In this document: piece after piece, positions 1 to 20,402 of the stretch
Layout: every line of letters begins with the position of its first letter
Numbering within the stretch: the stretch's first letter is position 1
DNA from: a virus
Virus record (IMG/VR): IMGVR_UViG_3300042090_001707
Coordinates: 1-31,604 of that record
Length of the DNA: 31,604 nucleotides
Reading direction: 5' to 3' (one strand)
Position numbers and translations under genes: made by a program
Notes under the pieces: generated by a model
Databases searched by the model: none
The model's input: only the letters and a program-made list of their open reading frames with translations
Told to the model about the DNA's origin: nothing

Positions 1-93
1 CCGAATGAGCCGTTCCCGACACCTCACCTCAAGGCACTGGTGCAGGCTTGTGAAAAAAGGCCGGAGCAACGCAATTCCCGCGTAGCGGGTTAG
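1..93 (+). CDS. C-terminal end of an unidentified plus-strand ORF (partial)
   Basis: Frame 1 is open from the window edge to a TAG at 91-93 and gives about 30 residues of mixed, protein-like composition (ending ...RNSRVAG). It could be the tail of a gene that begins outside the window. It points toward the phage late operon and so would not belong to it. The fragment is too short to identify, and chance openness over 90 bases of GC-rich DNA is quite possible. Confidence 0.25.
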   Translation, partial: PNEPFPTPHLKALVQACEKRPEQRNSRVAG

Positions 94-102
94 TACAATG
101 GG

Positions 103-126
103 CCTTATGCCGATGTCGGCATAAGG
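103..126. repeat. 11-bp perfect inverted repeat with 2-bp centre
   Basis: The left arm CCTTATGCCGA (103-113) and right arm TCGGCATAAGG (116-126) are exact reverse complements around TG. No T-tract follows, so it is a poor rho-independent terminator. The compact palindrome resembles a recombinase or dimeric-regulator site. It sits exactly where the coding-like DUF3489-type fragment begins, which suggests an element boundary, but that is inference. Confidence 0.6.
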
Positions 127-236
127 CGCATTCCGTCCGCGGCTTCATCTCCACGCTGGGCAGCAAGCACGGCTACACGATCACCAGCACGCGCCGCGAG
201 ACCGATAAAGCGCGCTGCTACTCGATCGCCAAGTAA
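126..236 (+). pseudogene. C-terminal fragment of a DUF3489-like gene
   Basis: The frame ending at TAA 234-236 encodes roughly AHSVRGFISTLGSKHGYTI followed by a Thr/Arg-rich stretch and CYSIAK. This resembles the winged-helix-like C-terminus of DUF3489 proteins, which typically read HxVRGxL...KKxGxxIxS...YxI. There is no start codon, the frame loses coding character at the inverted repeat, and an in-frame TGA lies at 51-53. The 5' part therefore appears to be missing. DUF3489 genes are often found beside mobile-element recombinases. The family match is by eye only. Confidence 0.4.
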
Positions 237-257
237 CAGGCTCCTGTAAACGCGAAG

Positions 258-285
258 AGAGCCCGGCATCGGCGCCGGGCTCTTT
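258..285 (+). terminator. Rho-independent-type hairpin between converging genes
   Basis: AGAGCCCGGC (258-267) pairs perfectly with GCCGGGCTCT (274-283) around a 6-base loop and is followed by TTTGT on the plus strand. It lies between the plus-strand fragment ending at 236 and the last minus-strand phage gene ending at 312. It probably terminates plus-strand transcription and may also stop the late operon from the other side, where the T-tract is poorer. Confidence 0.6.
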
Positions 286-311
286 GTCATTCAGGATGTC
301 CGCACTGCGCG

Positions 312-767
312 CTAATACAACTGGCTGGCGCTCAGTGCATAGGCGTAGGAGAAGCTCGAACACGTCGGCGTCGTCATGTTGACGACGATCGGGTCCGCGG
401 TAGATGTGAACAGCAGCAGCGGTCCGATGATGGACTGACTCCCCAGGTTCGATCCGCTCGCCGGCGTTCCAGCGAGCGACGCGAACGGAATGCTGATCGC
501 GGTGTAGGAGTTTGAGCCCGTCGGATCAGTCCAGAGGAACTGGGCGGAAAGCGAACCTGCACTGCAGCCGGCCGCCGTTACGACTTTGAGCGCGCTGGAA
601 ATCAGCCAGACGTGCAGGTTCGCGTCTGGCGGTGTGACGAGTGGGGAGCCCACCACGGAGCTCGTGGCGATGCCGGCCAGCGTCGTCTGGGGTGCGACCC
701 ACGTGGTCTGTGCTGCCAATGGCAGCGCGAGCAGAGCGAACAGTGCGATAAAGATGAGTCTTTTCAT
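312..767 (-). CDS. Secreted or appendage protein, paralogue of the neighbouring fibre C-terminus
   Basis: A 151-residue protein with an N-terminal signal peptide: basic MKRL, a hydrophobic core and a likely cleavage after ALPLAAQ. The mature part follows the same pattern as the last ~110 residues of the 911-residue protein encoded just upstream. Both have a Cys, a G-T/S-L motif, WTD followed by G-A/S-NSY-S/T, an IS motif, a second Cys near the end and a terminal Y-x-x-SA motif. The two Cys could pair in an oxidising compartment. It starts 2 bases after the stop of that gene, so the two are probably co-translated. It is the last gene of the late operon. Function is unknown; a receptor-binding tip or shed decoy domain is possible. 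Confidence 0.75.
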   Translation of the reverse strand: MKRLIFIALFALLALPLAAQTTWVAPQTTLAGIATSSVVGSPLVTPPDANLHVWLISSALKVVTAAGCSAGSLSAQFLWTDPTGSNSYTAISIPFASLAGTPASGSNLGSQSIIGPLLLFTSTADPIVVNMTTPTCSSFSYAYALSASQLY

Positions 768-769
768 GG

Positions 770-3505
770 TTAGCCAATCCTCGCTGCGGACACAAAGTAG
801 TCAAACGAGACGGTCGAGCAACCGGTGGGAACAGAGATGGCGTAGGTCGCCGGCGTGGTCGATTTCTGGATGATGGTGGCCTGGAACGTGTAGCTCCCAT
901 TCATCGCCGTACCGCTCGCAACAGCATTCGAGACGCTGGTAGCTGCCACGCTGATCGGGCTGTAGCTGTTCGCGCCCCTCGCGTCGGTCCATGCAATCGT
1001 CATCGCAAGAGTGCCAGTCCCGGAGCCGCACGACCAGGTGGACGTGGGCGTGATCGTGCCCGTGATGATCCACACCTGCTGTAAGGCTGATCCAGGCGCG
1101 GTGAAGAGGTTCGTCGCGGAAACTGCCACCGCCTTCCCGGACTCCCCGGACGTGAAATGTGTGGGCATGACGCCCAGCTTGCTGCTGCCCGGTCCTGAGC
1201 CGCCGTTGCTGTCGTAGACCTCCATCACGGACGGTGTGCTGGATGCGCCAAAGCCGTGAGAGGGCGCGTTGGTGCGGTTAAGAACACCATCTGATGTGCT
1301 TGTATATGCAGCTCCGGGCTGCACAGTAATAGCTCCACCCGTTCCGCTGGTGAGCTTGTGATTCGCAGTCAGCGTTTGGCCAAAGGAAATGTTGAGAAGA
1401 GCGTAGCTTGTGCTGCCCCGCCGATAGTTAAACGTGGGGCTGCTGGAGTCGATAATCCAGATGTCACCACTGGCTGGAGACGTCGGAGCGGCTGCCATCG
1501 GGAGTACGTTGATTCCTGCCGTGGCAGTGCTGGACTGGAAGGTTTGCTTCATGCCAGCAGCGAACGTGTTCGCAGCTCCGGTGTCTGCGAAGGTGCCGGT
1601 TGGGGCGGCCAGCGAGGTTCCCCAGGCTGATCCAGTGGACACCGGAATGCCGGCGCTCGGGTATGTCATGCCTCCGCCGCCTGCGGAGCACGTCCCGTCG
1701 CCCTTCATGAAAGACGATCCACAGCTAGCCCAGAGAGCAGCGATGTCAGCAGCTACAGCCGCGGAGAATCCGCCAGAGCCGTTCCCCTTGAGCGGGACGC
1801 TGCCCGTCGTCTGAGGTGCGTAACTGAGCGCAGGAATCCAGCCGGGCGCCAGAGTCCCGGCACTGCCCGCCATCGGGATTGCATTGGCCGCCGGCGTCAC
1901 CGTCGCCACAGGATCGGAGCCGCCGTACTGGTGGCTCGCAGCATGGGCTGAGGGTGCGAATGTCGAAGGGACGCCAGAGAGCGATGCCCATGGCCAGGTC
2001 GTGGGCTTGTTCAGGATCTGGGAGAGCCCAGAGGCAGAGGACCAGTCCGAGTTAACCTGCGCTGCCGGGATCGTGGGCTTGTTGAGGATCACGCCCAGAC
2101 CGCTGGAAGCGTTCCAGTCAGACTGCACCTGTGCAGCCGGGATCGTGGGCTTGTTGCTGAGATCCGCATAGCTGCCGGAAGTCGCGACAGTGGCGAATGT
2201 CGGCCACGTTCCAGGCGCCCCAGTGATGGGCACCTGGTAGAGTCCGGCCATCGCGCTCAGAACGCGGGCCGTGGTGAAGTAGAGATTCCCGCTTTCCGTG
2301 ATTTGCGCCGTCGTGGCCGGGATCGTGGGCTTGTTCAGGATCACGCCCATGCCGGTGGAAGCATTCCAGTCAGACTGCACTTGGGCAGCCGGGATGGTGG
2401 GCTTATTGCTGAGATCCGCATAGCTTCCAGATGTCGCGACCGTAGCGAAAGACGGAACGCCGGACAGGGACGCCCATGGCCACGTCACAGGCCACGTGCT
2501 GGGCGCGCCCGTGATCGGTGCCTGGTACAGTCCCGCCATCGCGCTCAGGACGCGGGCGGGGGTGAAGTACAGATTTCCGCTCTCTGCGATTTGCGCCGTC
2601 GTGGCCGGGATCGCAGGCTTATTCAGGATTACGCCCAGGCCGCTGGAAGCGTTCCAGTCGCTCTGCACCTGCGCTGCTGGAATTGTCGGCTTGTTGCTGA
2701 GATCGCTGTAATTCCCACTGGTGGCGACGATGGCGAAGCTCGGCCAGGTCGTCGGGGCGCCGGCGATCGCCGCCTGAAAGTAGCTCGCGGGTTTCTGTGC
2801 CGCGCTACCCAGGATCTGATCCAGCGCGCCGGAAATGCCAGAGCCGAGCCAGGTCAACGGCGTCTGGTACAGCCCAGCCATCGCGGTCTGGACTCGGATA
2901 GGTGTGAAGTACAGGCTTCCGCCTTCCGTGACCAGATCAGTGGTGAAGTCACCAGCCTGCGCCGCAACGGCGCCGGAACGTCCGAATACAGAAGAAACCG
3001 ATACAGAGACGCTTGCAGGAATAGCTGGCGCCCACGATGCACCGCTCCACGTAGGCACCTGGCCCACAGCCGTACCGGACGGCATCTGGTTCCAGTTGAG
3101 CTGCATCGACGCCGGGATCTGTGTGTTCCGTTCGATCGCAGCAACCGTCGTGGTCGTCGGCGAACTGGGGATCGCCCAAAACGCCGGCGCGCGGTTATGG
3201 CTCTGGCTCTGGCTGTAATAGATCACGTTGTAGTCGTAGCCAGGCGTGCACGAGGCCAGCGCGTAAAGCTGAATGGCAGGGATGCTCACGCCATTGGTGA
3301 CGGTGTAATCCTGTGCGGACGCCTGGATTTTCACACCGCCGCAAATGACGCCGGGATTGCTGACAGTGATGTGGCCCGACCACGGAGTGCCGTTGGGGTT
3401 GTTAATGGGGCCGTTGACAGTCACCAGCGTGGGCTGTGCAAAGAGCGCGCCGGCCGCCAACAGAAGGGAGATGAACGTCTTAAGAAACGGTATGAATTTG
3501 GGCAT
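770..3505 (-). CDS. Large repetitive tail-fibre-like protein with signal peptide
   Basis: A 911-residue protein. The start is ATG at 3505, preceded by GAGG at good spacing; a longer in-frame ATG at 3640 would overlap the upstream gene and lacks support. The N-terminus (MPKFIPFLKTF, then a Leu/Ala core ending LFAQ) is a Sec-type signal peptide. The middle carries three ~90-residue repeats built around SNKPTIPAAQVQSDWNAS, VILNKP and GNLYFTPARVLSAMAGLYQ, a repeat style seen in phage fibre and collar proteins. The C-terminal ~110 residues form a domain repeated in the next gene. It is Gly/Ser/Thr-rich with little Lys, as expected for a beta-rich trimeric fibre. Its place at the far end of the late operon and its signal peptide are unusual for a virion protein. 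Confidence 0.75.
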   Translation of the reverse strand: MPKFIPFLKTFISLLLAAGALFAQPTLVTVNGPINNPNGTPWSGHITVSNPGVICGGVKIQASAQDYTVTNGVSIPAIQLYALASCTPGYDYNVIYYSQSQSHNRAPAFWAIPSSPTTTTVAAIERNTQIPASMQLNWNQMPSGTAVGQVPTWSGASWAPAIPASVSVSVSSVFGRSGAVAAQAGDFTTDLVTEGGSLYFTPIRVQTAMAGLYQTPLTWLGSGISGALDQILGSAAQKPASYFQAAIAGAPTTWPSFAIVATSGNYSDLSNKPTIPAAQVQSDWNASSGLGVILNKPAIPATTAQIAESGNLYFTPARVLSAMAGLYQAPITGAPSTWPVTWPWASLSGVPSFATVATSGSYADLSNKPTIPAAQVQSDWNASTGMGVILNKPTIPATTAQITESGNLYFTTARVLSAMAGLYQVPITGAPGTWPTFATVATSGSYADLSNKPTIPAAQVQSDWNASSGLGVILNKPTIPAAQVNSDWSSASGLSQILNKPTTWPWASLSGVPSTFAPSAHAASHQYGGSDPVATVTPAANAIPMAGSAGTLAPGWIPALSYAPQTTGSVPLKGNGSGGFSAAVAADIAALWASCGSSFMKGDGTCSAGGGGMTYPSAGIPVSTGSAWGTSLAAPTGTFADTGAANTFAAGMKQTFQSSTATAGINVLPMAAAPTSPASGDIWIIDSSSPTFNYRRGSTSYALLNISFGQTLTANHKLTSGTGGAITVQPGAAYTSTSDGVLNRTNAPSHGFGASSTPSVMEVYDSNGGSGPGSSKLGVMPTHFTSGESGKAVAVSATNLFTAPGSALQQVWIITGTITPTSTWSCGSGTGTLAMTIAWTDARGANSYSPISVAATSVSNAVASGTAMNGSYTFQATIIQKSTTPATYAISVPTGCSTVSFDYFVSAARIG
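1965..2750 (-). repeat. Three in-frame tandem repeats within the fibre-like gene
   Basis: Three copies of a 230-280 bp unit run right to left and start near 2743, 2456 and 2203. Each encodes a version of FATVATSGSYADLSNKP followed by IPAAQVQSDWNAS and VILNKP. The first two also carry the GNLYFT...ARVLSAMAGLYQ segment, while the third is shortened. DNA similarity is high, for example the recurring ttgttgctgagatc and cagtcagactgcac strings, so copy number could change by recombination. Confidence 0.75.
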
Positions 3506-3512
3506 GTTTCCT

Positions 3513-3902
3513 CTACTGCTTGTGCAGCACCGCGACGAACAAGGCGAGCAGCAACGCACCGCAAGCCGCGCAGGCGACTCTGAGCCACATGGACAGCGAC
3601 TGTGTGCGCTCCATTGCAGTGCTGGCCTCCGCGCGGGCATCGTCCACCTTGTCGCGGATCTCCTTCAGCTCGCGATCGCGAATGTCGTTGATCTTGTTCC
3701 ATAGGTCGCGGCGATCTGCCGCACAATCGTCCAGCCGGCGCCGGGCCTCTGCTTGGAATTCACGCGTGCTCGTATGCCCCTCTGCCAGCTTTTCCATCGA
3801 GACCTTGATCTCGTTCACGCTGCTTTGCAGGCTGTCGATGCGCGTGATCAGCGTTGCCACGTGCCGGGAGATCTCCTGAATGCTTGGCGATTCTTCACTC
3901 AC
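3513..3902 (-). CDS. Coiled-coil protein with C-terminal membrane anchor
   Basis: A 129-residue protein from GTG at 3902, which has AAAGGA seven bases upstream. The same frame is open back to an ATG at 4103, which would add a Cys-containing N-terminus (CPFCDYPCW) and overlap the preceding gene by 14 bases, but no spaced ribosome site precedes it. Residues ~10-95 are heptad-like and charged (IDSLQSSVNEIKVSMEKLAE, RRRLDDCAADRRDLWNKIND). A single hydrophobic helix near the end (LRVACAACGALLLALFVAVL) would anchor it. Its position after the holin-like gene suggests an envelope or lysis-accessory role, but the family is not recognised. Confidence 0.65.
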   Translation of the reverse strand: MSEESPSIQEISRHVATLITRIDSLQSSVNEIKVSMEKLAEGHTSTREFQAEARRRLDDCAADRRDLWNKINDIRDRELKEIRDKVDDARAEASTAMERTQSLSMWLRVACAACGALLLALFVAVLHKQ

Positions 3903-4089
3903 GGTGATTTCCTTTGTAGGGTTCGTCCTGAAGGCAAGTCCCAGGGTTCCGCTCTGCTCAGCCAGGTCGCTCACATGCACACAGCCGCGCCAATTCACCC
4001 CGCCGAAAGCATCGGCGCTGACCCAGCATGGATAGTCGCAAAATGGACAAATTGGATGCGGCCCGGGCCGCCAGAGCGCGCTTGGCGGT

Positions 4090-4341
4090 TCAGCGGGTGG
4101 CATTCCCCGCGGGGGCGGTGCTGAGGATGCTCGATGGTAACGGGCTCTGCTTCAGGTAGGCGAAGACGGTCTTCAATGCGGAAAACACGAGCATGCCGGC
4201 GAGAGCTTCCCAGAAGCGCGAATCCCGCAGGAAACCCGGAGCCACTACGGCGGCGCCGAGCGCGACAGTGCCGGAATCTCCGAGTGCGGAAAGCACAGCG
4301 GCCAGCAGGCCGTGCAGCCAGAGACGCATGTTGCTGTTCAT
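4090..4341 (-). CDS. Small two-helix membrane protein, holin-like
   Basis: An 83-residue protein from ATG 4341 (AAAGG seven bases upstream); the longer in-frame start at 4386 lacks such a site. Two hydrophobic stretches are seen: residues ~6-32 (LWLHGLLAAVLSALGDSGTV onward, Ala/Val-rich) and ~47-62 (ALAGMLVFSALKTVFAYL). A short polar connector contains RDSRFW, and the tail is polar. Size and topology fit a class II-type phage holin, and it lies downstream of the tail genes. No endolysin is found beside it, so the role is inferred from size and topology only. Confidence 0.55.
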   Translation of the reverse strand: MNSNMRLWLHGLLAAVLSALGDSGTVALGAAVVAPGFLRDSRFWEALAGMLVFSALKTVFAYLKQSPLPSSILSTAPAGNATR

Positions 4342-4414
4342 CGTTAACCTTTCGGAGCGGGGCTGGACGCCCCGCCCAATCTGCATGGTTGTTTTGGGAT
4401 CGGTCGCCGCGGGC

Positions 4415-4738
4415 TTAGGCCGTGGCGCTGGCCGTCGGAGGCGTGGTCTTGTTGAACCAGCCCAGTTTGTTGAAGGCGTCGACCAGCGCGCTGGCGATCG
4501 AGGTCACGTACGTGGTGAGTTTGTCGATGGGCACCACCGATGCCACACTCTGTTCCGTCGTGTAGAGCGACTGCAGAGCGGCCTGCACGACGTTGAGTTT
4601 GGTCGCGCCGGTCTGGGCCGCGCTGTTGCCGGTCGCTCCAGCGACTTCCTGGAAGCCCTGTTCGAGCGCGGCGATGATGGACATGACGGTCGAGAGGATC
4701 GTCGGAATGATCTTGAGCCAAGTCAGAAATACAGTCAT
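4415..4738 (-). CDS. Small protein with N-terminal hydrophobic segment
   Basis: A 107-residue protein beginning at ATG 4738, with GGAG nine bases upstream. The first ~27 residues (MTVFLTWLKIIPTILSTVMS...) form a hydrophobic or amphipathic helix. The rest is Ala/Thr/Ser-rich and helical, and the last residues (KTTPPTASATA) look disordered. It lies between two other membrane-associated small proteins in the same operon. No family is recognised. A membrane-associated lysis accessory or virion protein is possible. Confidence 0.6.
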   Translation of the reverse strand: MTVFLTWLKIIPTILSTVMSIIAALEQGFQEVAGATGNSAAQTGATKLNVVQAALQSLYTTEQSVASVVPIDKLTTYVTSIASALVDAFNKLGWFNKTTPPTASATA

Positions 4739-4750
4739 GTGTTTGTTCTC

Positions 4751-5536
4751 CTATCGGACGGGAAATGTGAGCTTGAGCATGTCGAACGCCTTACTCACAA
4801 TGGTTTTCAGCATGCCCGCGCGCTCGCGCCACGGGCGAAGAGCGTCGTCGATCGACTCGGCGGCGCCATCGAGATGTCCACTCGTGCCAGCGATGTTGGC
4901 AATCGTGGTCTGAATGTTGTTGTCCTCGAGCAGCTTGGCGAAATCGTCCACCGCCCGGTCGAGGTCGGTCAGAGTTTGTTCAACCTTGGGCGAACCGGCG
5001 GCCAGCTGGTCGGCAGCCAGCTTGGTCAAACGGTCGATGTTGTCGAGCGATTCCTTGAGCGGCAGCAGCGTGGAGTTAGCGGTGATGAGGAACTGGTTCC
5101 CGGCCTTCACCGCCAAATCCGCATCGTCAAGCGCCGTGTTCAACCGCTGGCGCGTGTCGCGCACCAGCAGGCCCGTCTCATGGATGGAGGTCTGGAGTTC
5201 GGCGAGAACGCTGTGCGTATCGCGACGAACGTCCCTAAGGAAGGCCAATCCTTCCACCGCCGTGAGTTGCATTTGCCGCGAGGCCTGGTAGCTCTGGACC
5301 GATGCAGCCCTGATAACGCCCACAGTGGCAGTGGTTTGGGAAGGCAGGCACGCGCTGTTCTTGCGGCAGTCCGTGAGCCAGTCAAGTGCCCAGGCTGTAC
5401 TCGTGAGGCCCGGGCGCATCCCGTGCAGCAGGAGGCCCAGCTCGAACGCCGGCCAGCACAGCAACGTGCCCAGCACGAACCACGGGATGACCAGAACCAC
5501 ACGTGGGGTGCAGTGCTTGCGAGACCATTTGTTCAT
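4751..5536 (-). CDS. Membrane-anchored helical protein of unknown function
   Basis: A 261-residue protein with ATG at 5536 and a strong GGAGG eight bases upstream. The N-terminus has a transmembrane segment (residues ~12-38, VVLVIPWFVLGTLLCWPAF and on). A long helical region follows, with heptad-like patterns such as LAELQTSIHETGLLVRDTRQ and LDNIDRLTKLAADQLAAG up to ~residue 215. The architecture resembles single-anchor coiled-coil proteins of the cell envelope (DUF948 or MCE-like helical parts), but no signature motif is seen. It is the first gene after the tail hub gene, separated by 74 bases, and starts the block of small membrane proteins. Confidence 0.65.
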   Translation of the reverse strand: MNKWSRKHCTPRVVLVIPWFVLGTLLCWPAFELGLLLHGMRPGLTSTAWALDWLTDCRKNSACLPSQTTATVGVIRAASVQSYQASRQMQLTAVEGLAFLRDVRRDTHSVLAELQTSIHETGLLVRDTRQRLNTALDDADLAVKAGNQFLITANSTLLPLKESLDNIDRLTKLAADQLAAGSPKVEQTLTDLDRAVDDFAKLLEDNNIQTTIANIAGTSGHLDGAAESIDDALRPWRERAGMLKTIVSKAFDMLKLTFPVR

Positions 5537-5610
5537 GATGTTGCCTCCAAAAAGTGAGCTTGGTGGGCCGTAGTCAGCGGAGGATCAGCGGACCGGAGCG
5601 TCGCGACCGC

Positions 5611-6690
5611 CTATTTCGGTCGGGTTGCGGTAAGGCCCTTGCCCTGCCGGTAACCGGCAGCCTGCGTAAGGGTCTTCTGCGCTTCGATCTCGGTGATGTA
5701 GCCCGACTGATCGAGCGTGTGTTCCACGCGCACTGCAATCCACGCATGGTCGATCTCCGGCCGGAAGCCGGAGAGAATCAGCGGGCCTTCAGCACAGATC
5801 GCCGGATTGCCCTGCAGCGTGAGGCGGAGCAGTTCCGAGCCGCGATCCAGACGTTGCACCCTCGACGTGGCCGCAGCGAGCGCCTCGTTGCTGTTCGGGT
5901 ACTCGGCCGGATCCGTATCGACGGTGTCTTCCTCCGTGGCATCGTCCGAGACCGCTTCCACGTAGGTGTCCTGGCCAGCCTGCGGATCGTGGTAGCGCGC
6001 CCGGGCGCGCTTGTGCGAGCTGCGCCGGGTCAGTGTCGCCGCCCAGCGCAAGCAGTCGGTGGGCGCAATGTTCGTCGCTGGAATCGACTTGCCCGTGCCA
6101 CCCGACGGCGCGACCCCGGCGTTGTGCTGAAACACGATGATCTTGCCGCCCTGGATCTTCCAGCCGGCGTTCACCAGCTCCAGCAGCACGGAGAGGTATT
6201 CGTTGTCGCTCTGGCCGGTCTGCGCGCGGTGGGCGATCTGGATCGCACCGATGGTCGGATCGACCGCCGCGCCCAGGTTGTTGCGAGTAGCGATTTTGGC
6301 CACAATGCCGGTGATCGTCAGCCCGGTGTACGTGTCGGTGTTGCGGGCCTGGAGTCCGGAAATGCAGGTCGAGTTTGTATTCGCCACGGGCGCCGGCGTG
6401 TTGGCGCTGCGCGCCCGGAGCGTCAGGCGCCGGTCCGGTCCTTCCACTTCCAGCTCATCCACGATCCAGCGGCCCATCGCGGACAGGCCGGACTCCTTGT
6501 ATCCCAACGAGCACTCGATCATCGCGCCGAAGGGCGGCAGTACGATGGCCGCATCCCGGTCGTCGAGATCGATCTGCAACTGGTCGGAAGTCACACCCAC
6601 TTCGTCGGTGATGTGCAGCCGGATCAGGCGCGCCGCGATCTTCGATGTGAGATCGACATCGTTCGCTGTGATCCGAAATTGCGGAGTCAA
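5611..6690 (-). CDS. D: Baseplate hub / late control protein, P2 gpD family
   Basis: A 359-residue protein. The start is a TTG at 6690, one base after the gpX stop codon. The translated N-terminus (TPQFRITANDVDLTSKIAAR then LIRLHITDEVG) matches the usual start of the gpD family. This family forms the trimeric hub (T4 gp27-like) that carries the spike and caps the tail tube. Typical features include SDQLQIDLDDRD near residue 35-50, a strand-rich first half, and a closing segment ITEIEAQKTLTQAAGYRQGKG like other gpD tails. It is the last structural gene of the tail module, as in P2. Confidence 0.9.
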   Translation of the reverse strand: MTPQFRITANDVDLTSKIAARLIRLHITDEVGVTSDQLQIDLDDRDAAIVLPPFGAMIECSLGYKESGLSAMGRWIVDELEVEGPDRRLTLRARSANTPAPVANTNSTCISGLQARNTDTYTGLTITGIVAKIATRNNLGAAVDPTIGAIQIAHRAQTGQSDNEYLSVLLELVNAGWKIQGGKIIVFQHNAGVAPSGGTGKSIPATNIAPTDCLRWAATLTRRSSHKRARARYHDPQAGQDTYVEAVSDDATEEDTVDTDPAEYPNSNEALAAATSRVQRLDRGSELLRLTLQGNPAICAEGPLILSGFRPEIDHAWIAVRVEHTLDQSGYITEIEAQKTLTQAAGYRQGKGLTATRPK

Positions 6691-12990: not shown

Positions 12991-13383
12991 CTACTTCGAG
13001 GGCGGGGCGAACGTGGATCCGTCGTAGGTCCAGCCGACCACTGGCATCGGGTTCAGGTTGTCGATGCGGATGGCGCCGGGATACTGAACGCCGATCTTGG
13101 ACGGCAGGACCGTCACAACCTGAGCGACGGTCCCGGCTGTGACGATGGCGAACGTCTGCGGTGCCGTCCATGTGACGCCGTCGTAGCCCCAGCCGATGCC
13201 GGGCTGCGGCGTGACGTTGTCGATGCGAGGCGAACCGGGATAGTGCTGATCCATGAAGGCCTGATCGGCAACAACCGTGTTGGTCACTACGCCATCCTCT
13301 ATGACGGCATAAACGGTTTCGGATTTGGCCATGGCGCAGAACGCCACAAGAAGCACGAGCAGAGCGGTGTTGATGATCTTCAT
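12991..13383 (-). CDS. Secreted small protein with two tandem GW-YDG repeats
   Basis: A 130-residue protein with a clear signal peptide (MKIINTALLVLLVAFCAMA) and a strong ribosome site GGGAGGA before the ATG. The mature part holds two copies of a ~45-residue unit. The copies read YPGSPRIDNVTPQPGIGWGY DG and YPGAIRIDNLNPMPVVGWTY DG, each followed by a Thr/Phe-rich turn and Pro. Short YDG-containing repeats of this kind occur in phage tail-fibre tips and assembly proteins. It sits in a cassette of small appendage genes just before the sheath gene. Function is inferred from position only. Confidence 0.7.
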   Translation of the reverse strand: MKIINTALLVLLVAFCAMAKSETVYAVIEDGVVTNTVVADQAFMDQHYPGSPRIDNVTPQPGIGWGYDGVTWTAPQTFAIVTAGTVAQVVTVLPSKIGVQYPGAIRIDNLNPMPVVGWTYDGSTFAPPSK

Positions 13384-13393
13384 GAAGTCCTCC

Positions 13394-14095
13394 CTATTCC
13401 TGCCACGTCACGATCACGATTCCAGAACCGCCCGCGCCGCCGGTATAACCTGCGTTCGTAGCGCCGCCTCCGCCGCCGCTTCCCGTGTTTGCGCCTGCGG
13501 CGGTAGCTTGCAGCGTATTCGCGCCGCCATTTCCTCCACCGCACGCACCTTGTCCCGCGTAAGCAGCGCCATTCGTGTTTGATCCGCCGCCACCACCGCC
13601 CGCGAAACCATCGCGACATTGTCCACCACTTCCGCCGTGTGAACCAGACGGAGTGAATCCTGCGCCATTGGCGCCAGTACCGCCAGAATTGGTCGCAGAG
13701 GCACCATCGTTGGAAAAGCCAGCAGTTCCACCAGATGCGGACACCAATGCGCCGAAAGTGGTCGTTCCGCCCGCGCCCGCCGCCGCGCCGCCCGCGCCAA
13801 TAGTGACGGTCGTTGCAACGGTCGCTTGGACCATCTTCACGACTACCTGTCCGGCGTTGCCCCCACCACCCGGGTAACCGCTTGAATTCCCAACGCCACC
13901 GCCACCACCACCGCCAACGGCTTCAACCGTAACCCAGCCTCCCAAAGCGACCAGATTGGCCGATGGCGTGAAAGTCCCGGAAGTCAGAAAGACTTGCTGT
14001 TTGGTGACTGTTTTACTCCTGAGTAGTGTTGACAGTGAGGTTTGCCCGTAAGCAAACGCGCTCAACAAGAGCAGGCAGAAGATAAAGCGTTTCAT
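13394..14095 (-). CDS. Glycine-rich appendage protein with signal peptide
   Basis: A 233-residue protein. It begins with a signal peptide (MKRFIFCLLLLSAFAYGQ) and a strand-rich segment including VFLTSGTFTPSANLVALGGW and VTVEAVGGGGGGG. The C-terminal two-thirds is dominated by Gly, Ala, Ser and Asn with (GGxGG) runs and ends GGSGIVIVTWQE. This is the architecture of glycine-rich domains on phage tail fibres and adhesins (PF21722-like, T4 gp38-style polyglycine loops), where an N-terminal TFTP..V..V.V.GGGGGGG is typical. It has two Cys in the Gly-rich part. The signal peptide is unusual for a fibre tip. Confidence 0.8.
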   Translation of the reverse strand: MKRFIFCLLLLSAFAYGQTSLSTLLRSKTVTKQQVFLTSGTFTPSANLVALGGWVTVEAVGGGGGGGVGNSSGYPGGGGNAGQVVVKMVQATVATTVTIGAGGAAAGAGGTTTFGALVSASGGTAGFSNDGASATNSGGTGANGAGFTPSGSHGGSGGQCRDGFAGGGGGGSNTNGAAYAGQGACGGGNGGANTLQATAAGANTGSGGGGGATNAGYTGGAGGSGIVIVTWQE

Positions 14096-14096
14096 G

Positions 14097-14948
14097 TTAG
14101 AAGACTCTCCAATCGCTCGTCGCCGCGAAATAGATCAATGCGAACCCGCCGTAGGTGATATCCACCGTCAGCCCGTTTGAATCGCCCATTACCTTCTGCC
14201 CAGACGATGGAACGATGGTGAACGTGCTGGCGCCGCTGAGCCCATTGATGAAGAGCACCTGCTGCCCATCTGCGGTTCCGGCCGGCAGTGTTGCTACGAC
14301 TCCCGCCGCGATCACGTAATAACCGTTCTGAAACGCTGCGGCAAACGAAGCGCTCTTCGCGCTCCACGCGAGCGTGGGCGCGCTCAGTGTGCCGTTCGCA
14401 TAGCTGAGCCCGCTACCCACGGTCGCCGAAGCGAATCCGCCCTTACCATCACCGGCCAGCAAGGCCGCGGAACTCAACGCGGGAATTGCGGCGGTATTGA
14501 GCGTGCCGTTCGCGTAACTGAGCCCGGCGCCGATGGTCACAGGCGCAAAACCACCCTGGCCATTGCCCGCCAGAATCGCCGTCGTACCGAGCATTGCCAA
14601 TGCGGTCGCCTGGAGTGCGTTCTCCCAGGCCGTGATGGCAGCGAGCGTTTGCGCCTGCCACGTGGCAACGGCCGCCAGGGCCGCGGACTGCGAGGCTGTG
14701 ATGGCCGCTACGCTCGCGTTGGCGTTCGCCACATCCTGATTGAGCGTGGCGAAGGTCGGGCTCAGCACGGAGTCGAGCCGTGCCAGGCCGAAGTCCGTCA
14801 ACGTCTGCACGGCCGCTTCCCACGCGATCTTGAGCGCTTCGAGCGCCGCAATGCGCGTGTCCAGATCCCGGAAGCGCGGGTTGAAAGTCCCCGCGCTCAA
14901 CGCCGTCTGGCCATCGGTGAAGCGGTACTTATCGAAGCTGAGTGGCAT
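14097..14948 (-). CDS. Tail-fibre-like protein
   Basis: A 283-residue protein. The N-terminus (MPLSFDKYRFTDGQTALSAG) followed by LDTRIAALEALKIAWEAAV resembles the attachment and coiled-coil part of short tail fibres. A second helical region spans ~60-120 (Ala-rich). Two related ~40-residue beta segments follow, LAGNGQGGFAPVTIGAGLSY ANGTL and LAGDGKGGFASATVGSGLSY ANGTL. The C-terminal ~70 residues (FINGLSGASTFTIVPSSGQK and YGGFALIYFAATSDWRVF) look like a fibre knob. It overlaps the upstream small gene by 20 bases and probably forms part of the host-recognition cassette. Confidence 0.75.
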   Translation of the reverse strand: MPLSFDKYRFTDGQTALSAGTFNPRFRDLDTRIAALEALKIAWEAAVQTLTDFGLARLDSVLSPTFATLNQDVANANASVAAITASQSAALAAVATWQAQTLAAITAWENALQATALAMLGTTAILAGNGQGGFAPVTIGAGLSYANGTLNTAAIPALSSAALLAGDGKGGFASATVGSGLSYANGTLSAPTLAWSAKSASFAAAFQNGYYVIAAGVVATLPAGTADGQQVLFINGLSGASTFTIVPSSGQKVMGDSNGLTVDITYGGFALIYFAATSDWRVF

Positions 14949-15147: not shown

Positions 15148-17349
15148 TTACTGCGCAACGTCTGTCCGCTCAACAATCTGGAACGGCGCGGCGGCCGCCT
15201 GCCGCGTGCCCTGGATGTTGATGCTGTAGGTGCTGATCGCGCTCGGCGTGAACTTGAATGTGAACCGCAAGCCCACGCCATCGGGCTCGAGCGCGGAACT
15301 CGTCACCGAAGGCGTGATCGTATTGCCGCCGCTGCCGAGCGTGCACGTGAGCGTGTGCACGCCCGCGTTGTAGCCGACCACGACCACCTGCACCTGGATG
15401 TTGCTGCTCGCCGGCGAGATCGTCCGCAGCTCGCTCGTATGGTTGAACGCCACTGCCGGGCGAGAAGCCACAACGCCTGTTGCGTTCGCCAGGATGGCCG
15501 GCGCCAGGCTCGATGTGCCCAGGAAGACGGCACGCAGCGGCACGAGTTGCGGCGCCGAGTTCAACGGCGCGGTCGAGTCGCCCAGGTTGTACCACTGGCC
15601 GTTGACCTGGAATTGAATCTGCAAGCTTGTGCCTTGCGGCGTGACCTGAGAGACATTGATGGCCAGATCGGTCAATCCGCCGGCCAGCGACACGGGCTGC
15701 AGTTGGACCTGCGACAGCGCGTTCACGAACTGCGCGCCGTACAGCGTGAACATCAGGTCCTTGGTCAGGTCGCCTGTGAAGTACGCGCCATCTGTCGAAT
15801 GGAAAATTGTGCCGTTGGTATAGTTGTTGCCGCTGACAGTGGCGATGCGATGATTGCCCTGCGTAATCAGCACAAGTGCGTAACGTGTGCCTGCCTCGAG
15901 CAGCACGGCCGGGATCGGGATGTTGGTCGCCTTCGGGTAAGTGTTCAGCGTTCCGACCGGGACGATTACAGTGGCGATCGTGTTGGTCAGATCGGGCTGC
16001 CCGGCCACAGTCTTCGTGATGGCCACAGTCAGGTCGCCGGTCGATGCGACGGAGGTCAGGAACAGATCCAAGGCAGTGAGCCACATGGCGTTGGAGACCA
16101 GGAATGTCTGCGCCACCATGGCGCCGTTGATCGAGGTCGTGGAGGTCTGCAGCGCGTAGCTCGTCTGGGTGTATGCGTACCAGTAACCACCCCACAGATT
16201 GTATGCGTAGTACTGGTTGTAGTAGTTCCAGAACTGGCCCTGATACCAGTAGGGGTAATAGTTCCAGTTCCAGCCGTAGCGATACTGCCAGACCGTCTCC
16301 TGCTGCTGCACCAGCGTCTGGCTCTGCACCTGATACTGCGAGAGCGAGAGATCGCCGGAGTAGCCCGTGGTCTGAATGCGCGGGACGCTTGTGTAGGCCG
16401 GCAGAATCAGGCCCCGCGCGCTCTTGATAACGCTCGCATCGATCGGGTTGAACAGATCGAAGGGGAACGTCCCGCTCGCAGCATCGGGGAAGAGAATGCC
16501 ATTGCTGACCTTGGCTGCATAGCCGCTCGCAGCCGGATTGCTCTTCGTCAAATCGCCGAAGAAACTGGACTCGTACGAGGAATAGGAAGACGGCAGGTTC
16601 AATTTCGCCTTCGTGCGCGCCAGATCGGCCGCCATCTGCGTCACCAGGCTGAGGGAAGCGAGGCCGTTTGTTTTGGCGGCGAGCGCGCTCAGATCGGTGG
16701 CCAAGGAAGACGTCTTGAGTTGCACCTGGGTGCTGGTGGCCTCGAGCGTCGTAACGCGGGATTCGTGGCTCGCCAGGTTGGGCAGGATGTTGCCCGACTG
16801 CATGGCAACCGCGGTGATGCCGGTCGGAGAAATCGTGATGGTCGCGATCAGCAGCGCGTTGGCCGGAATCGTCGGCAATTGCGGTACCGGCGACTCGACG
16901 CCCGCGACAAATTGCAGATTGCAGGTGCGGACCGTCTGCAAGGCGGTCGATTGGGTCTGTGCGAGACCGGTCTGTGCATTCACCAGGAACGAGCGCGGCT
17001 CCACATCGGCAGTCGCATCGACCGAGCCCCAGGCGATGAGCGCAATGAGCTTCGGATCATTCAGCGGCAGCATGGCCTGCAGCGAATTCGTAGTCGAGGT
17101 GGGGTACTGATACACCCACAAGCCCGCGCTGCCCGACGGATTGGTGCCTTGCGCGTATAGGCGGCCGGGAGCCACGTTCACCTGGGTCTGGCCGTTTTGC
17201 GTGGCTATGAGCCCGGTGAAGTACATGCCAGCCGGCGCGATCGCGTCCAGCGCGATGTGGTCGATGCCGTCCGAGGTCCACTGCTGCAGGTCAATGAAGT
17301 CCTGCACCTGGAAGTCCATGTTTTGCTGAAAGTTGAATTGTTGTTCCAT
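15148..17349 (-). CDS. Large baseplate/tail-fibre protein following gpI
   Basis: A 733-residue protein in the position of P2 H. The N-terminal ~180 residues (for example FQVQDFIDLQQWTSDGIDHI and GRLYAQGTNPSG) look like the DUF4815/DUF6519-type baseplate-attachment domain. Residues ~195-250 are helical and heptad-like (SHESRVTTLEATSTQVQLKT). Residues ~354-398 form an extremely aromatic stretch in which 22 of 45 residues are Trp or Tyr. Later segments are beta-rich (SLAGGLTDLAINVSQVTPQG, FQVNGQWYNLGDSTA), and the last ~100 residues look Ig-like (VVVVGYNAGVHTLTCTLGSG). It is followed by small appendage genes rather than by a chaperone of the P2 G type. Exact family uncertain. Confidence 0.75.
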   Translation of the reverse strand: MEQQFNFQQNMDFQVQDFIDLQQWTSDGIDHIALDAIAPAGMYFTGLIATQNGQTQVNVAPGRLYAQGTNPSGSAGLWVYQYPTSTTNSLQAMLPLNDPKLIALIAWGSVDATADVEPRSFLVNAQTGLAQTQSTALQTVRTCNLQFVAGVESPVPQLPTIPANALLIATITISPTGITAVAMQSGNILPNLASHESRVTTLEATSTQVQLKTSSLATDLSALAAKTNGLASLSLVTQMAADLARTKAKLNLPSSYSSYESSFFGDLTKSNPAASGYAAKVSNGILFPDAASGTFPFDLFNPIDASVIKSARGLILPAYTSVPRIQTTGYSGDLSLSQYQVQSQTLVQQQETVWQYRYGWNWNYYPYWYQGQFWNYYNQYYAYNLWGGYWYAYTQTSYALQTSTTSINGAMVAQTFLVSNAMWLTALDLFLTSVASTGDLTVAITKTVAGQPDLTNTIATVIVPVGTLNTYPKATNIPIPAVLLEAGTRYALVLITQGNHRIATVSGNNYTNGTIFHSTDGAYFTGDLTKDLMFTLYGAQFVNALSQVQLQPVSLAGGLTDLAINVSQVTPQGTSLQIQFQVNGQWYNLGDSTAPLNSAPQLVPLRAVFLGTSSLAPAILANATGVVASRPAVAFNHTSELRTISPASSNIQVQVVVVGYNAGVHTLTCTLGSGGNTITPSVTSSALEPDGVGLRFTFKFTPSAISTYSINIQGTRQAAAAPFQIVERTDVAQ

Positions 17350-17360
17350 CGGATCTCTCC

Positions 17361-18569
17361 CTACTCACGCGGCAGCATCGCGCCGCACATCGTCGCCGGA
17401 TCGCACTGCGCCTGGCGTCCACAGCGCACGACCGTATAGTTGCGGGTATCGACGAGCAAGGTGTCCCGGAGCGAGGCGCAGCGCACCAGGCTGTCGCAAT
17501 AGCGCGTGAGCCACTGGTAATCCTCAGCCACGAAGTACCCCTGGCCGTAGTAGCTGGGCGCCGACGGTGAGCGCTGCAACGGGAACCAGGCCCGGATCTG
17601 CGCTGTGTGCGGCTGGATGCCCGTGTGTACGGCATCGACAAAGAAGCTCTTGCCGGTGGCCTCGAGCGTCCGGCTCTCATCGAACAGACACAGCCGGGCG
17701 TACACGTGGCTTGCCGCCTTCGATCCGCACCAATACAAAGCCTCGTTCGCGAAACCGCGCCCCGGAAAGATGCCCTGTGCCGGATAGGTCTCCGAAATCC
17801 AATCCGGAAAGACCTGCGTCGGATCCACGCCGGCATCGACGAGTTTGTAGTTGACGCCCAGCCCGGGCCCCGCGTAGCTCTGCATGAGTTGCAGCCGGTA
17901 AACCGGCGCGTCTACAGCAGTGCCGAATCTCGGAAAGCCGCCAGCGTAGGTTCCATGCGGGTTGCTGATCGGCACTCGGATCTGCAAATAGATCACACCG
18001 GATGCTGTCCACTCCGACACTGCACATTGCGTAGTCGATTCCTGATCCTCAATGAACGCCAGCGGCAGTGCCCGTTCCGCCGTGCCAAGGTCGACACCAT
18101 AGCAATGGCCCATGAACCGGCCGTTGAAAGTTGCTGCATCCGGGACCGCGAAAGGATCGCAATCGGTGCGCAGGATCAGCTGCGGATAGACCGCCAGTGC
18201 CGCGTCCTTCTCTGCCTGCGTTTGCCTCGCGCCATAGTAAAGCTGGCAGGGCGGCCGGACGACGTTCGTCACCGTGCCGCCATACAGCTCAGTCACCCGA
18301 CGAACGCCAGCGAGGGTCCCATCGACTCGATGATCCGCGAGGGGGGAAGCGACGACCGCGCGCTTCTTCGCCTCATCCCACGCGGTGTCCCAGGCATCGA
18401 CACCCAACGCCCAGGCGAGCCAGGGCAGCAACGCCGCGGGGATCGCCTGCGGATTCCACAGTGCGCGGATGCCAACCGGACCGTCGGCGCCGAGGCGCCA
18501 TCCCGCGCTCTCCATGTTCCGCTCAAACGGCGTCGCGTTGGACGGCAGGACCGAGGGGGTTGTGCTCAT
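17361..18569 (-). CDS. I: Baseplate tail protein I, with extended C-terminus
   Basis: A 402-residue protein. The N-terminal ~170 residues are a P2 gpI homologue: LPSNATPFERNMESAG, then IRALWNPQAIPAALLPWLAW ALGVDAWD, and HRVDGTLAGVRRVTELYG. gpI (T4 gp7-like part of the wedge) helps to build the baseplate periphery. P2 gpI is about 176 residues. The additional ~230 residues contain many Cys and aromatics (FMGHCYGVDLGTAERALPLA, ALYWCGSKAASHVYARLCLF) and form an unidentified domain. The ATG overlaps the J stop by 4 bases (ATGA). Confidence 0.9.
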   Translation of the reverse strand: MSTTPSVLPSNATPFERNMESAGWRLGADGPVGIRALWNPQAIPAALLPWLAWALGVDAWDTAWDEAKKRAVVASPLADHRVDGTLAGVRRVTELYGGTVTNVVRPPCQLYYGARQTQAEKDAALAVYPQLILRTDCDPFAVPDAATFNGRFMGHCYGVDLGTAERALPLAFIEDQESTTQCAVSEWTASGVIYLQIRVPISNPHGTYAGGFPRFGTAVDAPVYRLQLMQSYAGPGLGVNYKLVDAGVDPTQVFPDWISETYPAQGIFPGRGFANEALYWCGSKAASHVYARLCLFDESRTLEATGKSFFVDAVHTGIQPHTAQIRAWFPLQRSPSAPSYYGQGYFVAEDYQWLTRYCDSLVRCASLRDTLLVDTRNYTVVRCGRQAQCDPATMCGAMLPRE

Positions 18570-19447
18570 TCCGTCCTCGCTGGCGCTACAGTGACGGTCA
18601 CCGCGTCGCAGACGTTGATCTTGTACGGATCGCCGGCGACGTCGGTCACCGGCGACTGAATCGTCGCGTTCTGCACTCCGGCCTGGTCGAGAGCACCGTA
18701 CATGCCGGCGAGCGTGATGCCGTAACCAAGCCGTTGTACGTTCTGCGTGTAGGCTGTGAGCGCGTTGGTGATCGCCGTTGTGACAGCGCTCGCGTCTGGT
18801 CCCGGATAGAGCGTCACGGTGGCCGCTATTAAATAATGTTGGATCTGCGCGCCCTGCACCTCCACCACATCGGTCAGCGGCCGGACGTCATCCGCGTTGA
18901 GCGCGGCAGACACCGCGGCCAGCAGGTCCGGCGAAGCCACACCGCCGTTATCGGTGCTGTAAATCGTCACGACGACATTGCCCGGTGCAGGCGAGAACGC
19001 GCTGGCGTCGGCCACGCGCAGGTCCGCCGAGAACGCAAAGTAGATGTAAGCGTTGCCCGGACCGGCGCAAGAGAAAGCATCCGGCGCGAGCTGCGCGCGC
19101 AAGCGCAGCCGGTCGTCCGTTTCGGTCGTCACGTTGCCCTGCGCGTCCGTGAACGTCATGCGCTGGACACCGAATAGCGCAGCCAGATTGTCCAGGTCCG
19201 CGCCCAGCGCGGTGGCCAGCATGTTGGCATTCGCTGCGTCATTGATCCGCTGGCGCAACATCATTTCACGGTAGGCGAACGCCTCCACCAGCTTGACGGC
19301 CGGATCCGACTCCAGCAGCGCCGAGAATGAGGGATCGCGCGTCACCAGGTCCTGCAGAATGTCGAGCTTGATCGACTCGAAGTCGATCGTCTCCACCACA
19401 TCCGGTGGCGTCAGCGTCGAAAGGTCGATCAGGTTGAAGCGGCTCAT
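18566..19447 (-). CDS. J: Baseplate assembly protein J
   Basis: A 293-residue member of the P2 gpJ / baseplate J family, a T4 gp6-like wedge component. Typical features are FESIKLDILQDLVTRDPSFS, then LLESDPAVKLVEAFAYREMM LRQRINDA, and LDNLAALFGVQRM, then the GPGNAYIYFAFSADLRVADA region and a C-terminal LAGMYGALDQAGVQNATIQS. Length is normal. It overlaps W and I by 4 bases at either end, which indicates translational coupling in a W-J-I block as in P2. Confidence 0.95.
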   Translation of the reverse strand: MSRFNLIDLSTLTPPDVVETIDFESIKLDILQDLVTRDPSFSALLESDPAVKLVEAFAYREMMLRQRINDAANANMLATALGADLDNLAALFGVQRMTFTDAQGNVTTETDDRLRLRAQLAPDAFSCAGPGNAYIYFAFSADLRVADASAFSPAPGNVVVTIYSTDNGGVASPDLLAAVSAALNADDVRPLTDVVEVQGAQIQHYLIAATVTLYPGPDASAVTTAITNALTAYTQNVQRLGYGITLAGMYGALDQAGVQNATIQSPVTDVAGDPYKINVCDAVTVTVAPARTE

Positions 19448-19785
19448 GAAAGTTTCAGGCCTTGGATGGTGATGGTTTGCCCGTCAGGCAAATATGTTGC
19501 AGTGAGCGAGATCGAGATCGAGCCGTTCGCCGGGTCCGCCGCGACCGTTACGCTCTGCACATGAATCCGCGGCTCCCAGGTGGAAAGCGCACCGACCATG
19601 GCGGCAATGATCGCCATCTTGGTGCTCTCGTTGAGCGGCTGGTCGATCAGCGAGAAGAGATCCGAGCCGTAGTCGCGCAACATCACCCGGCTGCCCTTCG
19701 GCGTCAGGAGGATGTCGCGGATACTCTGCTCGAGATGGCTGAGGCCCGCCAGCTCCGCGCCGGTACCCGCGTTCATGCCGATCAT
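19444..19785 (-). CDS. W: Baseplate protein W, gp25-like
   Basis: A 113-residue member of the GPW_gp25 family, lysozyme-like in T4 and a wedge/sheath-initiation factor. The pattern LSHLEQSIRDILLTPKGSRV MLRDYGSDLFSLIDQPLN is diagnostic, containing the conserved TPKGSRVMLRDYGS core. The chosen ATG (19785) overlaps the V stop by 4 bases (ATGA). A longer reading of the frame up to 20190 is Arg-rich and lies wholly within gene V, so it is rejected. Confidence 0.95.
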   Translation of the reverse strand: MIGMNAGTGAELAGLSHLEQSIRDILLTPKGSRVMLRDYGSDLFSLIDQPLNESTKMAIIAAMVGALSTWEPRIHVQSVTVAADPANGSISISLTATYLPDGQTITIQGLKLS

Positions 19786-20402
19786 AATTGCGAGGGCGGA
19801 ACCGCCTGCGCTACCGTCCCGGTGGCGCGCACGTTGCCGGCCACTTTCAGCGTGCCGGCCACCTTCCCGTTCAGTGTCAGGTCGCCATCGACCGTCAGCG
19901 CGCCGGTAAGCGTCAGGCCATTCTGCGCATTCACGGTTACGGCCTGCGCCGTGACCGTTGCGTTGCCCTGAAGGTTGACCGTCACCGCGCCCACCGCATG
20001 AATCGTGAACGTGTGGGCCGCGCGGTCGTAAGTGATCGTCGTGCCATCGGAGTACTTCGTGACATGCTGATCCGCGCTGTTCGATGGCGCCGGCTTCGCG
20101 CCGCAATAGAGCGAGCCGATAATCACGCCTTGCGACAGGCTTCCACCGGGGCAAAGGATCGCCACATGCTCGCCGGCTTCTGGCGCCCACCAGGTGATGT
20201 CTCCGCCGGCGCGCGAGGTGAGCCAGGGAAGCGGCGCGGTCTGCACCTCGCCCACTTGTACAGTCGCCACCGCGTTTTGCAGGTCCACAGAAAGGATCAA
20301 GCCGCGGTGAATCAGATTGTTCACCTGATGGTTGAGCCGCGCGGTGTCCGGATCCTGCAGGTCGCCGGTCCTGGCCCCGCGTTGAATCAGAAGGTCCAGC
20401 AT
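19782..20402 (-). CDS. V: Baseplate spike protein V
   Basis: A 206-residue P2 gpV-like spike. The N-terminal OB-fold part reads GLILSVDLQNAVATVQVGEV, then WLTSRAGGDITWWAPEAGEH VAILCPGGSLSQGVIIGSLY, as in the family. The C-terminus is a triple-stranded beta-helix type region with alternating hydrophobics (TITYDRAAHTFTIHAVGAVT, then NGLTLTGALTVDGDLTLNGK). There is no obvious HxH metal-binding apex motif, and the end (APPSQL-like PP) is different from P2. It pierces the host outer membrane. Starts next to the connector gene stop. Confidence 0.92.
   Translation of the reverse strand: MLDLLIQRGARTGDLQDPDTARLNHQVNNLIHRGLILSVDLQNAVATVQVGEVQTAPLPWLTSRAGGDITWWAPEAGEHVAILCPGGSLSQGVIIGSLYCGAKPAPSNSADQHVTKYSDGTTITYDRAAHTFTIHAVGAVTVNLQGNATVTAQAVTVNAQNGLTLTGALTVDGDLTLNGKVAGTLKVAGNVRATGTVAQAVPPSQL

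Follow-up and report, generated by a model that had tools for sequence, protein, structure and literature searches.

On the accepted view, tailed phages build their virions in the cytoplasm, a reducing compartment in which disulfide bonds are not normal. Why, then, should fibre-like proteins of such a phage begin with signal peptides for the general secretory (Sec) pathway? This question is raised by IMG/VR virus record IMGVR_UViG_3300042090_001707, of which the 31,604-nucleotide stretch analysed here (the window) represents a 31.6-kb piece of the genome of a contractile-tailed soil phage. Four of its genes (312-767, 770-3505, 12991-13383 and 13394-14095; these and all window features given below lie on the minus strand) encode proteins of 151, 911, 130 and 233 amino acids (aa) with N-termini of this kind. 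Judging from sequence, we give about even chances to the proposal that the four are receptor-binding proteins of tail-fibre type which leave the cytoplasm through Sec, fold and acquire disulfide bonds in the periplasm, and come together with the virions at lysis. Its parts differ in strength: export and oxidation of the fibres are highly probable, and their docking onto virions could as well be wrong as right.

The Sec-type signals had been pointed out in a sequence-only reading of the window, and they hold up in all four proteins, each of which possesses an n-, h- and c-region with a site for signal peptidase I (SPase-I) and lacks a lipobox. The predicted signal of the 151-aa protein comprises residues 1-19 (MKRLIFIALFALLALPLAA^QTT; 711-767) and that of the 911-aa fibre residues 1-23 (MPKFIPFLKTFISLLLAAGALFA^QPT; 3437-3505), while genes 12991-13383 and 13394-14095 begin with MKIINTALLVLLVAFCAMA^KSE and MKRFIFCLLLLSAFAYG^QTS, respectively. 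In the last case our heuristic placed the cut after A15, but comparison with relatives makes cleavage at A-Y-G^Q the likelier. Given 13 textbook signal peptides from E. coli, this home-made heuristic recovers 12; its false-positive rate is 1.5% on internal segments and 1.8% on random sequences of equal composition. The observed scores were reached by 4 (312-767), 58 (770-3505), 2 (12991-13383) and 11 (13394-14095) per 5000 shuffled N-termini, and among 26 further window genes scanned it passed only 4415-4738 and 4751-5536, both of which belong to the presumed lysis cassette and encode membrane proteins. Ribosome-binding sites precede the start codons of the four genes, and the starts are shared by relatives. 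Hydrophobic N-termini do occur in 1-2% of random sequences, and mis-annotated starts exist (gp17 of Pseudomonas phage AH02, see below, is an example), but the conservation of the signals in several families makes chance or wrong start codons a scarcely credible source of them; start-codon error in particular was judged unlikely on this ground.

Signals were retained in every relative found. The 911-aa fibre has orthologues at loci L002, L003 and L004; L003 and L004, which come from the contigs of L091 and L083, retain the signals of both the 911-aa and the 151-aa protein, that of the latter with hydrophobic changes, and those of the 130-aa and 233-aa proteins are kept in L085, L097, L098, L161 and L162. 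In residues 4-19 of the orthologues, 31 of the 32 variable columns stay hydrophobic or small; the mature parts reach 256 of 324 (p 0.01), and the signal region varies about twice as fast as they do. Read in this way, the alignments indicate that the h-region is under purifying selection and that the signal preserves its type more than its exact sequence, as in a functional signal peptide. The cleavage sites, in the window as in relatives, are of the form A-X-A or A-X-G, mostly with Q next.

A second line of evidence comes from the cysteines, since cysteines of exported proteins pair and their number therefore tends to be even. The mature proteins of the window all have even counts (two in the 151-aa, six in the 911-aa, two in the 233-aa protein and none in the remaining one). 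Those of the 911-aa fibre group as 55/86, 595/606 and 826/896, and the third pair aligns with 68/136 of the 151-aa protein. Of 35 signal-bearing fibre proteins, 29 have cysteines behind the cut, and the number is even in 27 of these 29, one cysteine sitting at the predicted cut in each of the two odd cases; among signal-less genes of the viral loci, even counts were found in 226 of 532 (Fisher p 4e-8, uncorrected for homology). With one member per hand-collapsed family the ratio is 34 even to 3 odd (p 1e-9), and both p values are approximate owing to homology between families. Odd exceptions are the L162 homologue of the 130-aa protein (one cysteine), gp16 of the Tunturi phages (one; see below), L332 (three) and a 647-aa protein of L072 (nine). 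Even cysteine numbers would be a mark of export that is independent of the signal calls. Because of this pattern and the conservation of the signals, export is the simplest reading, as the sequence-only reading had supposed. That reading had also offered a membrane-active helix as an option. An N-terminal helix that stays uncleaved, as membrane anchor or for contact between virion and membrane, would agree with the single hydrophobic helix per protein; the clear A-X-A/A-X-G sites with their frequent Q, the purifying selection on the h-region and the even cysteine counts nevertheless speak against it, and we regard it as very improbable.

The identification of the exported proteins as fibre-like likewise finds support. 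The predicted product of 770-3505 matches the tail fiber protein family phrog_9729 (E 9e-43) and consists of the signal, an N-terminal beta domain, fibre repeats and a tip. The N-terminal domain (about residues 24-127; 3125-3436), which holds Cys 55 and 86, also follows a signal in L257, L290, L291 and many acidobacterial genomes; its model, of low confidence (mean pLDDT 55), resembles tail-fibre and minor-tail proteins in BFVD, and these fold matches may point to a fibre function. YADLSNKPTIPAAQVQSDWN-type repeats, spanning about residues 170-520 (1946-2998; phrog_9729 and phrog_17509 matches), are common to many phage fibres, and other fibre open reading frames (ORFs) with such repeats carry a signal in a small minority only. 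Compared with phrog_9729-type tail fibres, the window fibre is alike in its repeat shaft, late-operon place, tip domain and N-terminal fold but differs in its signal peptide and paired cysteines. The C-terminal tip (residues 790-911; 770-1138), with a conserved cysteine pair, is a paralogue of the protein encoded by 312-767, which consists of a signal and one beta-sandwich-like domain (residues 43-150 against 800-910 of the fibre: 30% identity, E 3e-9). The latter has no phrog_9729 match of its own; its AlphaFold2 model is mainly beta except for the signal helix (pLDDT 63), and a fold search with it returned weak beta-sandwich matches and nothing stronger. From the alignment, the 151-aa protein is best described as a separate copy of the tip domain with its own signal. 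Pfam holds no family for 312-767, 770-3505 or 12991-13383, and NCBIfam gave no match among eight proteins tried.

The genes of the 911-aa fibre and of its tip copy conclude the late operon, as had been claimed: the late genes of the window are on the minus strand throughout, the gaps among 3513-4103, 770-3505 and 312-767 measure just 2-7 bases, and a search of 1-5700 revealed no sigma-70-like promoter. Directly upstream, four small genes (3513-5536) encode membrane proteins, as judged from hydrophobic segments, and by position they form a probable lysis cassette. A comparable arrangement is seen in phrog_31472, a family of unassigned function that was reached via the shared fibre repeats and is matched by Pseudomonas phages AF and AH02 and by L017, L049 and L072. 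Signals were found on AF gp25, AH02 gp17 and most full-length IMG/VR relatives, and gp25 of AF, whose host is Pseudomonas putida, closes the late operon, where it follows the genes for holin, spike, endolysin and Rz/Rz1, thus paralleling the window. Family and window fibre share signal, fibre repeats and a C-terminal beta domain but differ in N-terminal and tip sequences, and the phrog_31472 profile did not match the window proteins at E 0.01; a scan with it found no member in 300 genomes of one order and none in the control genomes either, and is therefore uninformative. In AH02 gp17 (L323, MZ501271.1 16383-17531) the annotated GTG start hides the signal, which an internal ATG at 16434 reveals.

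The cultured acidobacterial phages Tunturi 1-5 (PMC11924767), which share a host genus and of which Tunturi 1-3 share one strain, comprise phages with and without such signals and constitute a natural experiment. In the podoviruses Tunturi_1 and _2, signals occur on gp12, gp13, gp14, gp16 and gp17, i.e. on nearly all recognised fibre or spike candidates (the deposited name of gp14 is 'tail spike protein' in one phage but 'pectin lyase' in the second), and the mature gp12, gp13, gp14 and gp17 contain 20, 10, 20 and 32 cysteines in Tunturi_1 and 20, 10, 20 and 34 in Tunturi_2. In the jumbo myovirus Tunturi_5 signals are found on gp337, gp341 and gp342 ('tail fiber protein') and on gp338 ('virion structural protein'), with 18 (gp337), 6 (gp338), 14 (gp341) and 12 (gp342) mature cysteines. 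Cysteine numbers are even in all long signal-bearing fibre or spike proteins checked in these three phages, while the podovirus Tunturi_3 and Tunturi_4 have fibres without signals; per 100 aa, the Tunturi_1 set has 2.1 cysteines and the Tunturi_3 fibres have 0.34. Since nearly all recognised fibre and spike candidates of Tunturi 1 and 2 are predicted to be exported, they would have to dock after release, unless host binding is the task of a protein that has escaped recognition.

Outside these phages, a search of 297 genomes from the phylum to which an acidobacterial metagenome-assembled genome (MAG) belongs found the N-terminal domain of the fibre in 27, and nearly all homologues with a readable start carry a signal. 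The carriers include further acidobacterial phages and prophages, and the homologues occur in three contexts. In phage tail modules (L257, L290, L291) the gene lies between tape measure and lambda-J-like genes; twelve loci (L292, L294, L295, L298-L301, L305, L308, L309, L311, L312) share a syntenic element with many collinear genes; and L296, L303 and L310 are solitary chromosomal genes. The syntenic element, which many acidobacterial genomes possess, contains a Terminase_6C TerL-like gene, conserved unknown genes and a fibre of 1100-1600 aa with a signal wherever the start is readable (that of L292 has a GDSL lipase domain), and looks from its gene content like a phage-derived, domesticated element resembling a gene transfer agent. 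Solitary signal-bearing fibre-like genes were also found through the fibre repeats (L254, L255, L256), some solitary acidobacterial MAG proteins have repeated CLKGDGTWGxC motifs, and in L316 (9193-15180) an endolysin-like gene comes after three tandem signal-bearing fibre-like genes (8, 2 and 24 mature cysteines). The duplication of the tip domain and the spread of the signals over several unrelated phage groups go beyond what the earlier reading had noticed.

These homologues bear on a further option of that reading, lysogenic conversion. The window proteins would then be host-type secreted adhesins carried as conversion or moron genes, which arose from acidobacterial chromosomal genes of their domain family or were swapped with them. 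Solitary chromosomal genes indeed share the post-signal domain or fibre motifs together with signals, and in L004 a gene resembling acidobacterial chromosomal genes lies no more than 2 kb after the 151-aa gene. Against such an origin stand the tight late-operon packing, in which no separate promoter was recognised, the presence of the trait in cultured phages with lytic cycles (Tunturi) and the placement of the L257, L290 and L291 genes within tail modules. We hold it to be improbable overall, and pure lysogenic conversion was judged unlikely because of the packing and the lytic-cycle phages.

For the proposed export of virion fibres we envisage four steps. First, as far as the sequences tell, each fibre would be made late as a Sec precursor whose functional-looking SPase-I signal is under selection. 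Second, it would be transported through SecYEG, cleaved, and then folded and disulfide-bonded in the periplasm, as the cysteine pattern suggests. Third, the mature fibre may stay in the periplasm up to the moment of lysis, which is brought about by genes of its own operon. Finally, the freed fibres would encounter complete virions, and some could attach to the tail from outside; other copies, chiefly the tip-only 151-aa protein, might remain free and bind receptors on debris and neighbouring cells. Docking at lysis fits the tight coupling to lysis genes, presumed in the window and annotated in AF.

A purely non-virion action of the exported fibres is less probable than docking. One form of it, by analogy with Llp of phage T5, would be receptor blockers acting in the periplasm or after release, which exclude superinfecting phages and keep progeny off debris; we consider this less likely than not, but a serious competitor of the docking proposal. 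Llp and Cor are phage-made, periplasmic, disulfide-bonded superinfection-exclusion lipoproteins encoded beside a receptor-binding protein gene, pb5 in the case of T5 Llp (PMC9586334). The 151-aa protein, a tip without shaft or attachment region, would suit such a role, and it fits that AF possesses a signal-less tail spike in addition to gp25. Llp and Cor are small, however, whereas the window proteins are fibre-like and have no lipobox, proteins of 900-1400 aa would be expensive plugs, and in Tunturi 1 and 2 the signals on nearly all candidates leave no clear virion adhesin. Virion docking and receptor blocking are in any case compatible roles.

Several observations weigh against the mounting of exported fibres on virions. 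Known tailed-phage assembly is cytoplasmic, and the signal calls depend on a home-made heuristic. The 151-aa protein lacks any part to dock with, and both AF and the window phage also encode signal-less fibre or spike proteins that are possible virion adhesins. In relatives, the slot occupied by 12991-14095 may instead hold signal-less proteins of 396 (glycine-rich) and 123 aa (L083:14318-15889, L091, L093). Signal-bearing homologues without phage genes nearby (L254, L255, L256, L296, L303, L310, L319) indicate that such proteins can act without virions. Finally, signal peptides, SDS-PAGE and mass spectrometry go unmentioned in the text of the Tunturi paper (PMC11924767), whose two occurrences of 'signal' are in references.

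The 12991-14095 pair differs in make-up from the two terminal genes. The predicted exported 130-aa protein (12991-13383) comprises two copies of a phage domain without assigned function (phrog_14370, E 4e-9; the second copy was recognised by eye), and the 233-aa protein (13394-14095) is a glycine-rich, fibre-tip-like protein (Pfam Gly_rich_2; phrog_863), likewise predicted to be exported. The pair is flanked by a signal-less fibre-like gene (14097-14948; PHROGs and signal scan) and the sheath gene, a position which we take to be the slot used by P2-type phages for fibre and chaperone genes. Among close relatives, L082, L085, L097, L098, L161 and L162 have the signal-bearing pair and L095 has an empty slot, so that, with the signal-less version, the slot appears as an allele swap between closely related flanking genes. 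A 733-aa protein without signal (15148-17349; phrog_17470), situated between the tail protein gene 17361-18569 and the slot, found no relatives when used as query of the genome collection.

PHROGs matches elsewhere in the window include TerL, portal, major head protein, baseplate proteins, tail sheath and tape measure. The GTG ORF listed at 19444-20190 overlaps the next gene heavily; translation probably begins at an internal ATG instead and yields a gp25-like baseplate protein. The top-scoring TerL relative in public genomes comes from an acidobacterial MAG (42%), and the L004 protein encoded up to 2 kb downstream of the 151-aa gene has matches in 12 of 149 genomes of the acidobacterial phylum, to which that search was confined; because of these two matches Acidobacteriota are the likely host. 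Downstream of 9190 in L003, after the 151-aa gene, reading frames resembling tyrosine recombinases (by eye) suggest a temperate phage.

A search of the literature for tail fibres or tailspikes with signal peptides found no paper that treats them as a class, and the adsorption inhibitor gp38 of phage SD286 is without a signal peptide. The nearest parallel are the mosaic adhesive trimer (MAT) fibres of Bdellovibrio, which combine a signal, a conserved beta-rich N-terminal domain of about 130 aa, a phage-like fibre and diverse tips (PMC10769870). The resemblance of the window fibre to them is one of architecture (a signal, then a beta-rich N-terminal domain), and MAT fibres are products of bacterial genes displayed on the predator; Pfam showed no S74 domain in 770-3505, and a PDB sequence search with it gave no match. 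If the fibres are exported and disulfide-bonded, virions would be completed outside the cytoplasm, or large fibre-shaped blockers would be released. If they are mounted on virions, this would be a new assembly route: a second way of building tailed phages by Sec export, periplasmic oxidation and outside mounting at lysis, which, with a likelihood somewhat short of even, may be used by many phages of Acidobacteriota and some of Pseudomonas.

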